Shown here one piece after another: positions 5,705 through 11,948 of a DNA stretch of 64,000 bases. The stretch's first letter is position 1. Each line of letters begins with the position of its first letter. The stretch is taken from positions 1,715,501-1,779,500 of the forward strand of contig NZ_CP051630.1 in NCBI RefSeq assembly GCF_012848855.1, in the 5' to 3' direction. The position numbers and the translations under genes are program-made. The notes beneath the pieces are model-generated. The model saw only the letters and a list, made by a program, of their open reading frames with translations, searched no databases and had not been told where the DNA came from. This DNA comes from Pyruvatibacter mobilis (GTDB lineage Bacteria; Pseudomonadota; Alphaproteobacteria; CGMCC-115125).

Positions 5705-6088
5705 TTACTCGGGCTTCCAGGCCTCGTAATCGCCTGCAGTGCTGGCGCGCGGGGTGCCGGTGACGAGCGAACCGGCCGGGCGGTAGGCATGTTCGGAGCC
5801 GGTCAGGTTCGGCATGTGCGGCTTTTCCCAGGCGCGCGGCTTGTAGGCGGCGCTGGCCGGCGGGGTGTCCACGGTCTTATGCATCCAGCCATGCCATTCC
5901 GGCGGAATGCGAGAGGCTTCAGCAAGGCCGTTATAGATGACCCAGCGGTGCTGCGGGTCCTTGCGGCTCTGGTAATACTTGTTGCCCTGGCTGTCCTCGC
6001 CGACGAGTTCGCCGCGGCTCCAGGTGAGCAGGCGGGTGCCATAGGTCTGGCCGTTCCACCAGGTGAAAATCTGTCTGAACCACATCAT
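5705..6088 (-). CDS. NADH:ubiquinone oxidoreductase accessory subunit, NDUFA12 (B17.2) family
   Basis: Homologue of the mitochondrial complex I accessory subunit B17.2, found in complex I of alphaproteobacteria. The 127-residue protein begins MMWFRQIFTWWNGQTYGTR and has the family core LVGEDSQGNKYYQSR, HRWVIYNG, ASRIPPEWHGWMH and KPRAWEKPHMPNLTGSEHAY. The frame stays open upstream, but similarity starts at the double Met, so I place the start at 6088. It lies upstream of mlaD and DUF2155 on the same strand, an arrangement seen in other alphaproteobacteria. Confidence 0.92.
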   Translation of the reverse strand: MMWFRQIFTWWNGQTYGTRLLTWSRGELVGEDSQGNKYYQSRKDPQHRWVIYNGLAEASRIPPEWHGWMHKTVDTPPASAAYKPRAWEKPHMPNLTGSEHAYRPAGSLVTGTPRASTAGDYEAWKPE

Positions 6089-6300
6089 CGGACTTGCCGC
6101 TCGACCTCTTGATACGTGCCGGGAGGGGGCGCTTTCTCCGTCGGGAGAGTCACCGCCAAAAGTTGCCGCAATATGGCATTGCGCGCCGGGGAGCGTCCAC
6201 CCTTTGAATGGGCCGACAGATCGCGTGGCCGCAGGGAATCCCAAGGCCAATAGCGGGCCAACAAGGAGACTAGCAGGGGAGCTGAGGGCGCACACTTTCC

Positions 6301-7048: not shown

Positions 7049-7078
7049 TTGACCGGCCGCCGTTAACTACCCCATATT
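7049..7078 (+). promoter_or_regulatory. Candidate promoter of the pseudo-RNR gene
   Basis: TTGACC (7049-7054) and CATATT (7073-7078), separated by 18 bp, match five and four positions of the sigma-70 consensus. The stretch is AT-rich compared with its surroundings. It would leave a leader of roughly 100 bases before the ATG at 7184, which is preceded by a G-rich ribosome binding site. Confidence 0.45.
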
Positions 7079-7183
7079 TTGTTAACTATTTTTGCATGCG
7101 CACAAGATGTAGCCCTGCGTGCGGCGTCGATTCAGCCGTGACGGGGCGTTCAGATCATCAATGGTCCGGTTTGGGGGGCGACC

Positions 7184-10018
7184 ATGCAGATCCAGCGCTA
7201 TTTCTCAGCAGACAGGTCCGCCGCCGCGCGGCCGGGCTTCTTCCGGCGCGTGCGGGTGACGCTGGCGGCCGAAAATGGGGCTGCGACCGGGTTCGAGGTC
7301 ACGGCACCGGCGGACTGGGAGCTGGGGGCCGTAGAAGCCTTTGCCCGGCATGGGCTGCTGCCCTCCGGCGTGCCCCATGCCCGCCAGAGGCTGGCGGAGG
7401 CAGGTGTGCCGCCGGAGCTGCAGGCCTGCACTCCGCTTGAGGTGCCGAGCCGGGAGACGACCGGCGCGGAGACCGATATCCGCAGCGCAGTGAGCCGGGT
7501 GGCCGGCGCGCTGGCGCGGGCGGGGATGGAGACGCGGCTGTTCCGCCGCGCCGAGGACGCGCTTGCTTTCCGGGATGAGCTAGAAGCCTGCCTGCTGTCG
7601 CGGCGGATTACCCTGGCCCCTGCCCTGTGGCAGGGCATCGGCGCACACTGGGCCTACGGGGCGCCGCCCGCATCTGCTGCTGCGCCTGACGGTGACAGGC
7701 GCACGGAGGCCGATGACCTGACGGCGCGCCTGCGGGCATCGCGCGGGCGCGACCGGGATGCGGCGGCACTGGCGCTCGGCCGGGCTTTGCTGGATGAGCT
7801 CTCGGAGGACATGGCATCCGCCCTTGAAGACGATGCGTCCACCAGGGCCTTGCGCATGGTGTTGCGCCGGGCGGAGGAGCTGGGCCTGCCGGCGACCGCT
7901 GCGCGGCGGCTGATGGATGAGCACGCGGCGGGCGTTGAGCCGCTTGCAGCCGGGGACGCGCATCTGGATTTCGATTCCGATATCTGGGATCTGCTAGGCA
8001 CCCCGCAGGACAGCGACGCCCCTGCCCGGCTGACAGGCGACACGCCGATGGATGAGCTGGTGGCTGCCAGCTATCTGGGCCGGGCGCCGGAGCTGGTGCT
8101 GGTGCTGACGGATGCGGATGTATCTGCAGACGGGGCGCATGTGCCGTGCGGTCACGTGGACGTTCTGAAATTCGATGCGCCGTCGCGGGGCGGCAGCCTG
8201 GATGTGGACGGGCTGTGCCATGCGGTGCATGTGCTGGCGGTGGCGCTGGACCTGGCCCATGAGGTGATGGCGTGCGGCGGGGATGATGCTCCGTGCCGCA
8301 CCGGCCGCCCGATTGCCGTTGCGCCGATGAACCTGGCAAGCCTCGTGATGAGCCGGGGCATGGCCTATGGGTCGGACGAAGGCCGGGCGCTGGCGGCGAC
8401 GGTGTCCGCGCTGGTGACCGCCGCAACGGCAGCCACGAGCACGCTGCTGGCTGAACAGCAGAAGCCGTGCGACGCACAGCACCTGACGGATGATCTTGCG
8501 GCCATGCAGCGGGCGCTGCTGGGCCATGCGCCGGATGGCGGCGCCATGCTGCCGATGCCGCTGTTCCCCTATACGGCGGAGCAGGCACGGGTGCTGGACC
8601 GGGCCCGCCTGCTGATGGGCAAGGCGCTGGACCGCGCGGCGGTGACGGGCCTGCGCAATGGCGCGCTGACCGCCCTGCCCGCCGACGAGGATGCCGCGCG
8701 GATGATGTCGGCGGAATCAGCCGGCATCGCTCCCATGGCGCGGCTGGTGCATTTCCGCCGCCTGACGCCGGATCTCGACCCGGACGCCATCTACAAGACG
8801 ATTTCCCCTTCGGTGCCCGCCGCGCTGCGGGCGCTGCATCATGACGATGCGAGCATCGAAGCGCTGCTGGACCACGTGGTAGGCCGCGGCACGCTGGAGG
8901 GCGCGCCGGGCGTCAATTACGACCTGCTGCGCGAGCGCGGCTTCACCGACGACGACATGGACGTGACGGAGGCAGCCCTTGCCACCGCCGCCACCATCCG
9001 CGCGGTGTTCACGCCCTATGTGCTGGGGTGGGACGACGCCATTCTGGGCAGCACGGACATTCTCTCGCGGCTGGGTTTTTCGGACTGGGACGTGGAGCAC
9101 GCCAATTTCTATTGCTGCGGCGCGCAGACGCTGGAAGGCGCGCGCGACCTGCCGGTGGAACAGCTCGAGGTATTCGACTGCGCAGCCCCGCTGGGGCAGA
9201 TCGGCACCCGGCAGGTGGCGGCGCGCGACCGGCTGCTGATGGCACAGGCGGTGCAGTCGTTTGTGACCGGGCCGGTGGCGCTGGATGTGACACTGCCGCC
9301 GGACAGCGACGCGGACGAGATCGCGGCGCTTTACGGCGAGGCGCTGACGCTGGGCCTGCGGCGGCTGCGGCTCAACCGGGACGCGGCCAGCCTGTGCGAC
9401 CCGCTGGATTATGACGATCTGCTGGATAGCGGCGACGTGCCCGCCGGGGACATCGAAGCGGCAGTGCAGGTGCGAGCTGTTGAAAGCGACATGGCGTTTG
9501 ATCCGCAGGCGGATGGCATGCCCTCCGCGGGTGATATGCCGCCACTGCTGGCGACGCTGGTGTCGGTGGGGCTTGCCAATGGTGTGCCGCTTTCAGCCTA
9601 TGAGAAGGCACTGGCGGAGATCGGTGTCGATATGGATGACGCCGGCATGCGCGCCGCAATCCGCGAGATGGCATCAGGTTTCCTGGCCCGGCCGCGGACA
9701 GGCGGTGTGGCGGAGAGCTATGACCCGCTGACACAGGACGGTGCGCAGCACGGCCATGCGGGGCAGCAGCCTGCACGCAGCACGCCCGGTGGGGCGCGCC
9801 TGCCAGCGACGACTGCTGATATGGCGACTGATACAGATAATTCGAACGAGGACGGGACAATCGCGGGTCCGGCCTCGGGCATTCTTGATACCGGCGCTGT
9901 GAAGGGCGCCTACGACATTGTGGTGTCACCGGCTGACGGGCCGGTGCCGCCCTCCCCCTCTTTCGGCGACCCGGCCTACTCGCCCCCCAGCGTTTCCGGC
10001 CGGGACCGGGAGGAATAG
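7184..10018 (+). CDS. Degenerate class II (B12-type) ribonucleotide reductase-like protein, probably catalytically inactive
   Basis: The 944-residue protein is collinear with alphaproteobacterial NrdJ, judged from remembered motifs. Retained blocks include HWAYG (155-159), MAYGSDEGR (393-401), a LRNG segment (490-493), GAPGVN (573-578), YCCGAQTLEGA (643-653), VFDCAAPLGQIGTR (663-676), SFVTG (692-696) and a C-terminal VGLANGVPL block (794-802). The core is missing. The glycine-rich segment after HWAYG is replaced by an acidic helical stretch (about 160-300). Aligning C322 with the second Cys of the active-site loop puts T309, A311 and V313 where NrdJ has the essential Asn, thiyl-radical Cys and Glu. 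The phosphate loop APTGTIG reads LPADEDA (498-504). The last ~110 residues look disordered. The frame is uninterrupted, so it seems maintained. A terminator follows at 10097. Confidence 0.85.
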   Translation: MQIQRYFSADRSAAARPGFFRRVRVTLAAENGAATGFEVTAPADWELGAVEAFARHGLLPSGVPHARQRLAEAGVPPELQACTPLEVPSRETTGAETDIRSAVSRVAGALARAGMETRLFRRAEDALAFRDELEACLLSRRITLAPALWQGIGAHWAYGAPPASAAAPDGDRRTEADDLTARLRASRGRDRDAAALALGRALLDELSEDMASALEDDASTRALRMVLRRAEELGLPATAARRLMDEHAAGVEPLAAGDAHLDFDSDIWDLLGTPQDSDAPARLTGDTPMDELVAASYLGRAPELVLVLTDADVSADGAHVPCGHVDVLKFDAPSRGGSLDVDGLCHAVHVLAVALDLAHEVMACGGDDAPCRTGRPIAVAPMNLASLVMSRGMAYGSDEGRALAATVSALVTAATAATSTLLAEQQKPCDAQHLTDDLAAMQRALLGHAPDGGAMLPMPLFPYTAEQARVLDRARLLMGKALDRAAVTGLRNGALTALPADEDAARMMSAESAGIAPMARLVHFRRLTPDLDPDAIYKTISPSVPAALRALHHDDASIEALLDHVVGRGTLEGAPGVNYDLLRERGFTDDDMDVTEAALATAATIRAVFTPYVLGWDDAILGSTDILSRLGFSDWDVEHANFYCCGAQTLEGARDLPVEQLEVFDCAAPLGQIGTRQVAARDRLLMAQAVQSFVTGPVALDVTLPPDSDADEIAALYGEALTLGLRRLRLNRDAASLCDPLDYDDLLDSGDVPAGDIEAAVQVRAVESDMAFDPQADGMPSAGDMPPLLATLVSVGLANGVPLSAYEKALAEIGVDMDDAGMRAAIREMASGFLARPRTGGVAESYDPLTQDGAQHGHAGQQPARSTPGGARLPATTADMATDTDNSNEDGTIAGPASGILDTGAVKGAYDIVVSPADGPVPPSPSFGDPAYSPPSVSGRDREE

Positions 10019-10096
10019 CCCACCTACAAGAAGGCGCGGAAACCAAGCCCCCCAAGCGCGGTTTCCCACAAACAATTACCCCCAAGATGAACTAAA

Positions 10097-10124
10097 GGGC
10101 TCCTCTTTCGAGGAGCCCTTTTCT
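10097..10124 (+). terminator. Rho-independent terminator after pseudo-RNR, probably bidirectional
   Basis: GGGCTCCTC and GAGGAGCCC form a perfect 9-bp stem around a TTTC loop, followed by TTTTCTT on the plus strand. On the minus strand the stem is followed by TTTAG, so it may also help end the aspS transcript, whose stop is at 10164. Confidence 0.88.
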
Positions 10125-10163
10125 CTTGGCGCTGATTGCCTGTGGGGATGATCCGGAAACGGA

Positions 10164-11948
10164 TCAGTCCTTGGGCACAACCGTGCGGATGTGAAGTTCG
10201 CGGAGCTGGTGGGCGTTGGCCTCGGCGGGGGCGCCCATCATCAGGTCCTGGGCCTGCTGGTTCATCGGGAACATGGTGACTTCGCGCAGGTTTTCTTCGT
10301 CGGCGAGCAGCATGACGATGCGGTCCACGCCCGGGGCGATGCCGCCATGGGGCGGGGCGCCATAGCGGAAGGCGTTCAGCATGCCGCCGAACTTCTCTTC
10401 CACCACTTCCGGCCCGTAGCCCGCAATCTCGAACGCCTTCATCATGATTTCGGGCTTGTGATTACGGATGGCGCCGGAGGACAGCTCGATGCCGTTGCAG
10501 ACGATGTCATACTGGTAGCCGTTGATCTCCAGCGGGTCCTTCGTCTCAAGCGCTTCCAGCCCGCCCTGGGGCATGGAGAAGGGGTTGTGCGAGAAGTCGA
10601 TCTTCTGTTCGGTTTCGTCCCACTCATACATGGGGAAGTCGACGATCCAGCAGAACTCGAACTTGTTGTCGTCAATCAGGTTCAGCTCGCGGCCGATCTG
10701 CTGGCGGGCCTGGCCTGCAAAGTCGACAAACTTTGAGGGGATGCCGCAGGTGAAGAACACCGCGTCGCCCGCCTTGAGGTCGAGCTGCTGGCGCAGGGCC
10801 TCGGTGCGCTCCGGGCCGATATTCTTGGCAAGGGGGCCTGCGCCTACGAGCTCGCCTTCTTCCTCGCGGAAGAAGATGTAGCCAAGGCCGGGCTGGCCTT
10901 CCTTCTGGGCCCAGGAATTCATCCGGTCACAGAAGGCACGGCTGCCGCCGCCCGGTGCCGGGATGGCCCAGACGCGGACCTTGTCGTCAGCGGCAATCTG
11001 CCCGGCAAACACCTTGAAGCCGGAATCGCGGAAGGTGTCGGTGGCGTCCGACATCTCGATCGGGTTGCGCAGGTCCGGCTTGTCGGAGCCATATTTACGC
11101 ATGGCTTCGGCGAAGGGAATGCGCGGGAATTTCTCGGTCACGCTCTTGCCGTTGCCGAACGCGACGAAGACATCGCGCAGGATGGGTTCGACGGCCTGGA
11201 AAATGTCTTCCTGCTCGACGAAGCTCATCTCGATGTCGAGCTGATAGAACTCGCCCGGCGAGCGGTCAGCGCGGGCGTCTTCGTCGCGGAAGCAGGGGGC
11301 GATCTGGAAATAGCGGTCGAAGCCCGCGACCATGATGAGCTGCTTGAACTGCTGCGGGGCCTGCGGCAGGGCGTAGAACTGGCCCGGATGCAGGCGGCTG
11401 GGCACCAGGAAGTCGCGCGCACCTTCCGGCGAGGAAGCGGTCAGGATCGGCGTCTGGAATTCCATGAAGCCCGCTTCGGTCATCCGGCGGCGCAGGTCTG
11501 CAATGATGCGCGAACGCAGGACGATGTTCTCGTGCAGGCGCTCGCGGCGCAGATCGAGGAAGCGGTAGCGCAGGCGGGTTTCTTCCGGGTAGTCGAGATC
11601 ACCGAAGACCGGCAGAGGCAGTTCCTGCGCTTCGGACTGGATCTCGATGGACTTGATGCGGACTTCAACCGCGCCGGTGGGCAGCTTGTCGTTCACCGTC
11701 TCGTCCGACCGGGCCACAACTTCACCGTCGATGGTCACCACCCATTCCGCGCGCAGGGTATCAACGGCGGCAAAGGCCGGGCTGTCGGGGTCGGCCACGC
11801 ACTGGGTGAGGCCGTAATGGTCGCGCAAATCCACGAACAGCAGGCCGCCATGGTCGCGCACGCGGTTGACCCAGCCGGAGAGGCGCACGGTCTTGCCGAC
11901 GTCCTCCGCACGAAGTTGGCCGCAGGTATGGGAGCGATAACGGGTCAT
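10164..11948 (-). CDS. aspS: Aspartate--tRNA ligase
   Basis: Charges tRNA-Asp, and in many alphaproteobacteria also tRNA-Asn when an amidotransferase pathway is present; the sequence alone does not settle which. The 594-residue protein is of bacterial type: an N-terminal OB-fold anticodon domain ([19 protein letters not shown]), class II motif 2 ([16 protein letters not shown]), a long bacterial GAD insertion domain and motif 3 ([13 protein letters not shown]) near the C terminus. Start and length are normal for the family. It is divergent from rnd. Confidence 0.98.

Follow-up and report, generated by a model that had tools for sequence, protein, structure and literature searches.

The gene at positions 7184..10018 (+) of the window, by which we mean the whole 64-kb stretch of DNA analyzed here, encodes a 944-aa relative of the class II ribonucleotide reductase NrdJ that, judging from an unbroken frame and a dN/dS under 1 between species, has been conserved as a pseudoenzyme and is not a pseudogene. 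Ribonucleotide reductase (RNR) is essential wherever DNA is made. The coding sequence, called pseudo-nrdJ below, was defined from the open reading frame, homology searches, and comparison of orthologs. The window lies within a complete 3.33-Mb genome (G000), and three congeners (G001-G003) were examined alongside it.

Descent from NrdJ and loss of the catalytic elements

The open reading frame, its coordinates, and all motifs quoted in the first-pass annotation were found in the sequence, with HWAYG (155-159), YCCGAQTLEGA, VFDCAAPLGQIGTR, LPADEDA, and C322 all present in the translation. The protein matched the Pfam families PF08471 (class II RNR N-domain, 1.4e-8) and PF02867 (RNR barrel, 2.3e-13). 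It also matched the NCBIfam NrdJ equivalog PRK07562 (NF005736) at 2.8e-73, yet reached only 247 bits against a cut-off of 1737. The best PDB match by sequence was the NrdJ of Rhodobacter sphaeroides (7b9p, 1.4e-57). The same structure was the top Foldseek match of the AlphaFold models for the window protein (7.5e-33, TM 0.56; mean pLDDT 63, pTM 0.62) and for its G003 ortholog (4.0e-34, TM 0.63; mean pLDDT 65, pTM 0.63); because active NrdJs were among the sequences aligned for both models, the fold match does not count as evidence separate from the sequence match. The predicted folds are consistent with the NrdJ homology that had been claimed, and the similarity is far beyond chance: the protein is a true homolog of the long alphaproteobacterial class II NrdJ.

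Model quality was good in the N-domain and second half-barrel and poor in aa 164-198, aa 253-319, and the region beyond aa 734. The N-terminal NrdJ domain (aa 1-162; 7184..7669, +) is covered by PF08471 and folded in the model, with pLDDT mostly 75-93. It is followed by a linker of low model confidence (aa 163-321; 7670..8146, +), which by alignment and model takes the place of the first half-barrel, loops 1 and 2, and the finger loop. The second half-barrel with a helical insertion (aa 322-745; 8147..9418, +) was assigned from PF02867, the alignment to 7b9p, and the model. The two barrel halves of the enzyme, betaA-E and betaF-J, are joined by the finger loop (PMC9669993), and in these terms the pseudo-NrdJ is without the first half and the finger loop.

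To define the losses, the four genus proteins were aligned with 25 active NrdJs, in which 481 columns are near-invariant. Taken together, the genus proteins keep 94 of these columns, while 292 are changed and 95 deleted. The position of NPCSE reads DVSAD, GVAAP, GVAAP, and GEPAA in the four orthologs, and that of the phosphate loop APTGTIG reads PADEDAA (aa 499-505; 8678..8698, +), SNDTVFM, SDDTVLM, and SDDADMA. HACF, which holds the first redox cysteine, and GSGTG are deleted in all four, and the second redox cysteine (TACNLAS) is replaced, leaving no redox cysteine pair. The C-terminal zinc finger with its Cys pair is also absent. The deletions cover active-enzyme residues ~200-299 and about 390-420, and the SGQNSNNSVR stretch is gone as well. 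From established RNR topology, we take the deleted regions to be the dimer helices, the specificity site, and loops 1 and 2; deletion of the dimer helices would make canonical NrdJ heterodimers impossible.

No N-x-C-x-E motif was found in any register of the 944-aa protein, and the only cysteines conserved across the four orthologs are C644, C645, and C666, all within the C-terminal insertion. The earlier claim of an erased radical site is therefore upheld by both the alignment and the motif search, and the actual loss is larger, as it takes in the entire first half of the barrel. The exact register proposed for that site (T309/A311/V313) proved unreliable. Its anchor, C322, is not conserved (C, S, S, and T in the four species) and hence is not the second redox cysteine; the loss of the radical site does not depend on this register. 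A sequencing artifact as the cause of the motif loss was ruled out, as four genomes agree. With its catalytic elements deleted or replaced, the protein, as judged from its sequence, cannot reduce ribonucleotides. A PF02867 profile search of the complete genome G000 and the congeners returned neither a second NrdJ nor a separately encoded half-barrel, ruling out such a protein as the supplier of the catalytic part. The split class II RNR NrdJa/NrdJb (PMC9669993) is similar in that a class II polypeptide is missing part of the enzyme, but there a second chain supplies the missing part, whereas none was found in the pseudo-NrdJ genome.

The closest known system is the long dimeric class II NrdJ (NF005736/PRK07562; 7b9p), with which the pseudo-NrdJ shares descent, locus, the N-terminal domain, the second half-barrel, the helical insertion (CCGAxTLEG and FDC motifs), and an NrdR-box promoter. 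It differs in being without the first half-barrel, specificity site, dimer helices, finger loop, redox cysteines, phosphate loop, and zinc finger, and in its length of 944 aa versus about 1200.

Retention at the ancestral locus

Orthologs were found in all four genus genomes (46-82% identity) and had no internal stops; the G002 copy is incomplete because its contig ends within it. One MAG of the genus that carries the ortholog is titled Candidatus Phaeomarinobacter sp. For the closest pair, dN was 0.105 and dS 0.67, giving a dN/dS of 0.16 (bootstrap 0.125-0.193) by NG86, the method behind all quoted values; YN00 gave 0.24 for this pair, and synonymous sites are saturated between most pairs. 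Constraint is uneven along the protein. It is strongest in aa 531-700 (170 codons; 8774..9283, +), which contains the three conserved cysteines and has a dN/dS of 0.04, while the tail (aa 746-850) is closer to neutrality at 0.33. The GC3 of the gene in the window species is of coding type. The neighbors aspS, accC, rnd, and NDUFA12 have dN/dS values of 0.008-0.023, about 7-20 times lower than that of pseudo-nrdJ, which is thus constrained, but much less than its neighbors. Frameshifted copies were not seen in the genus, though selection is weaker by that same factor. Together with the intact frame in 4/4 species, the original locus, and the retained NrdR operator, the dN/dS of 0.16 favors the first-pass view of a retained pseudoenzyme over a decaying gene.

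The gene is flanked by an NDUFA12-like gene upstream (5705..6112, -), which marks the ancestral nrdJ locus, and by aspS downstream (10164..11948, -), a gene that likewise neighbors the dead nrdJ of families f64 and f146. In five genomes, an active nrdJ comes after this block as well, (accB-accC-)aat-DUF2155-mlaD-NDUFA12, with matching orientation, indicating that pseudo-nrdJ is the ancestral nrdJ in place and not a stray copy. In a protein tree, the four genus proteins group as a single, long-stemmed clade (support 1.0, stem 0.96).

The only other RNR found was class I NrdAB: G000 has an NrdA and NrdB pair, and NrdA is also present in the two near-complete congeners (NrdA in 3/4 genomes; NrdB seen in G000). 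It had been suggested that the protein might regulate or partner an active NrdJ encoded elsewhere. With only class I NrdA and pseudo-nrdJ in G000 and its congeners, this is not supported, and all that is left of the idea is that the protein may modulate the class I enzyme. One B12-binding-domain protein is left in G000 (889-aa frame). The genome of Ca. P. ectocarpi has B12 import genes and indicates probable B12 auxotrophy (PMC4110880), which fits the loss of a B12-dependent reductase.

Putative regulatory elements at both ends of the gene

The first-pass annotation had pointed to a terminator and a plausible promoter, and both are visible and conserved. The promoter has a -35-like TTGACC (7049..7054, +) and, 18 bp on, a -10-like CATATT (7073-7078, +) that lies inside NrdR box 1; TTGACC and CCATATTTTGTTA are conserved in G001 and G003. 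Scoring of NrdR boxes used a general consensus for such boxes. Box 1 (ACCCCATATTTTGTTA; 7069..7084, +) and box 2 (GCACAAGATGTAGCCC; 7100..7115, +) are 31 bp apart, and both have the critical C4 and G13. Box 2 is weaker in the window species (10/16 versus 14/16 in the congeners), and the pair scores 22/32 there and 26 in G001 and G003. It is the only pair scoring at least 21 in the 64-kb window, and mononucleotide shuffles gave 0.5 pairs per Mb at a score of at least 22. The critical G/C pairs described at positions 9/18 and 40/49 (PMC9110341) imply a 31-bp spacing, as in the window. An NrdR gene is present in the genome. The two boxes, about three helical turns apart over the promoter and with conserved G/C, agree with membership of pseudo-nrdJ in the NrdR regulon, but the promoter could simply be inherited. 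In the same genome, nrdB is preceded by an NrdR-box pair (L034:6807-6854), and no pair of comparable score was found directly before nrdA. The class I enzyme thus resembles pseudo-nrdJ in the box type of nrdB but is catalytically complete and encoded elsewhere; it would be the beneficiary in the function proposed below, and is not a relative in detail.

At the other end of the gene, a genus-specific two-hairpin element with C6 loops (9960-10122, +) spans the stop codon into the 3' UTR. It takes up the final 20 codons together with the 3' UTR, with hairpin 1 inside the last codons (9972..10002, +), hairpin 2 in the 3' UTR (10038..10066, +), and the conserved intrinsic terminator AAAGGGCTCCTC-TTT-CGAGGAGCCCTTTT at 10094..10122 (+); the hairpins show a few paired changes. 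Third-position invariance in the last 18 codons is 0.67, whereas the rest of the gene averages 0.11 and never exceeds 0.33. Over 9-10 nt, the loop of hairpin 1, TCGCCCCCCA, complements the G-rich leader TTTGGGGGGCGACC that immediately precedes the ATG of the same gene (7170..7183, +). Of 289 genomes searched with a covariance model, only those of this genus had the element, each in one copy. We regard it as a candidate 3'-UTR sRNA or self-regulatory element, as defined from four sequences with weak folding z-scores. An mmgR-like match at 10071-10133 was not accepted (22.8 bits versus a cut-off of 41), and no cobalamin riboswitch or other Rfam element reached the gathering score at the locus. 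The C-terminal tail SPPSVSGRxRE was set aside as a protein binding motif because its conservation is at the DNA level.

Dead copies in other families and possible functions

Inspection of genomes with low profile scores revealed that five or more further alphaproteobacterial families (f105, f161, f116, f64, and f146) have a dead nrdJ at the ancestral locus, which rules out a pseudo-NrdJ confined to one genus. These NrdJ-like genes lie at loci L090, L091, L092, L093, L095, and L096 (genomes G212, G309, G221, G118, G279, and G185). The proteins are 1001 aa long in f105, 812 aa in f161, 708 and 731 aa in f116, 811 aa in f64, and 812 aa in f146; that of f151, at a different locus, has 918 aa. The catalytic motifs are absent from all dead copies of these six families. 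Other RNRs are present in all of these genomes except G221, in which none was found. In a tree of neighboring genes, the dead copies fall into four separate groups and the genus of the window is nested among families with active NrdJ (UFBoot 100), with several other nodes weak. Independent inactivation thus appears well supported for the window's genus and likely, though not proven, in the other families.

Several further arrangements were observed. In f105, genome G212 has, in addition to the dead long NrdJ, a class II NrdJ of the short type in which all motifs are present (L116:817-3177), and proteins of f64 and f146 (L118, L120) look similar to this short form. In another f105 genome, G301, the dead nrdJ is in two pieces ~2.1 Mb apart, both open frames: an N-half at the ancestral locus (L098:7265-8680) and a C-half (L097:8617-10188), with a C-terminal tail matching that of an intact congener. 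G220 has two near-identical NrdJ-like genes (L094:8496-11249; L087) without catalytic motifs, with a TSCPD domain and a degenerate zinc finger; they were not seen at the usual nrdJ locus.

The reading that we tentatively favor, which may well be right without being firmly established, is that the pseudo-NrdJ belongs to the NrdR regulon and, as a pseudoenzyme, modulates the supply of dNTPs by the class I RNR. NrdR would repress the gene when dNTPs are plentiful, and at scarcity the protein would be made together with the class I RNR. The remaining N-domain and second half-barrel would then serve as a non-catalytic binding protein modulating dNTP supply, with NrdA/NrdB or their thiol-redox partners, for instance, as possible contacts. 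Catalysis was probably lost after a shift away from B12: under B12 auxotrophy, a B12-dependent RNR would be a liability, and a non-catalytic role could be kept. Separate losses in several related families suggest that the dead protein is still useful. A broader version, which we consider doubtful, is that the long NrdJ has a second, non-catalytic job, and that upon B12 abandonment catalysis was repeatedly dropped while the protein was kept under NrdR as a class I regulator, giving rise to a convergent class of pseudo-RNRs.

It is unlikely, but to be taken seriously, that the scaffold was instead exapted for binding in a process that has nothing to do with dNTPs, with the NrdR promoter as a leftover. 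The lineages keep different parts, namely the N-domain and second half-barrel in f1, f105, and f116 versus the TSCPD domain in f161, f151, f64, and f146, which speaks against one shared function, and no clear NrdR-box pair precedes the dead copies of f64, f146, and f161. However, all six strict NrdR-box pairs in 186 kb of loci lie directly upstream of dead nrdJ (f1, f105, and f116), and in these three groups the spacing and critical bases are kept despite strongly diverged coding sequences, whereas an idle operator should decay.

Slow decay, in which the gene drifts after losing its catalytic role and stays open through weak residual constraint and too little time, is improbable. The dN/dS well above that of the neighbors, the near-neutral tail (0.33 for aa 746-850), and the split gene of one f105 genome would agree with it, but the gene is intact and free of internal stops in 4/4 species even though most pairs are saturated at synonymous sites, and it has a dN/dS of 0.04 over 170 codons and coding-type GC3 in the window species. 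We give still less credence to the locus being kept mainly to host the 3'-end RNA, whose C6-loop hairpins would pair with G-rich ribosome-binding sites, its own included. The third-position invariance, the two hairpins with some paired changes, the complementarity of TCGCCCCCCA to the leader, and the single genus-specific copy per genome point that way; against it are the purifying selection that acts on the protein hundreds of codons before the element, the lack of an Rfam family at gathering score, the weak z-scores from only four sequences, and the failure to find the element in sampled genomes of other families. That the protein is still an RNR, through relocated catalytic residues or a separate half-barrel, is almost certainly wrong: no supporting evidence was found, and the idea is largely refuted by the missing N-x-C-x-E, the confinement of the three conserved cysteines to the C-terminal insertion, and the PF02867 search of the genome.

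To our knowledge, inactive RNR relatives are known chiefly from cytomegaloviruses. UL45 and M45 of these viruses are described as inactive homologs of the RNR large subunit kept for a non-catalytic, protein-binding role (PMC5469499). They differ from the pseudo-NrdJ in being viral, derived from class I R1, and acting on host RIP1 signaling, and we claim no mechanistic relation. No description of a bacterial inactive RNR was found in the open-access literature searched, which by itself does not establish that the finding is new. In annotation, B12-dependent DNA synthesis could be attributed by mistake to genomes carrying such genes. A dead class II enzyme, as in this marine alphaproteobacterial genus, has been kept at its locus under the operator of the RNR repressor, apparently several times independently, which suggests that NrdJ does something besides nucleotide reduction.
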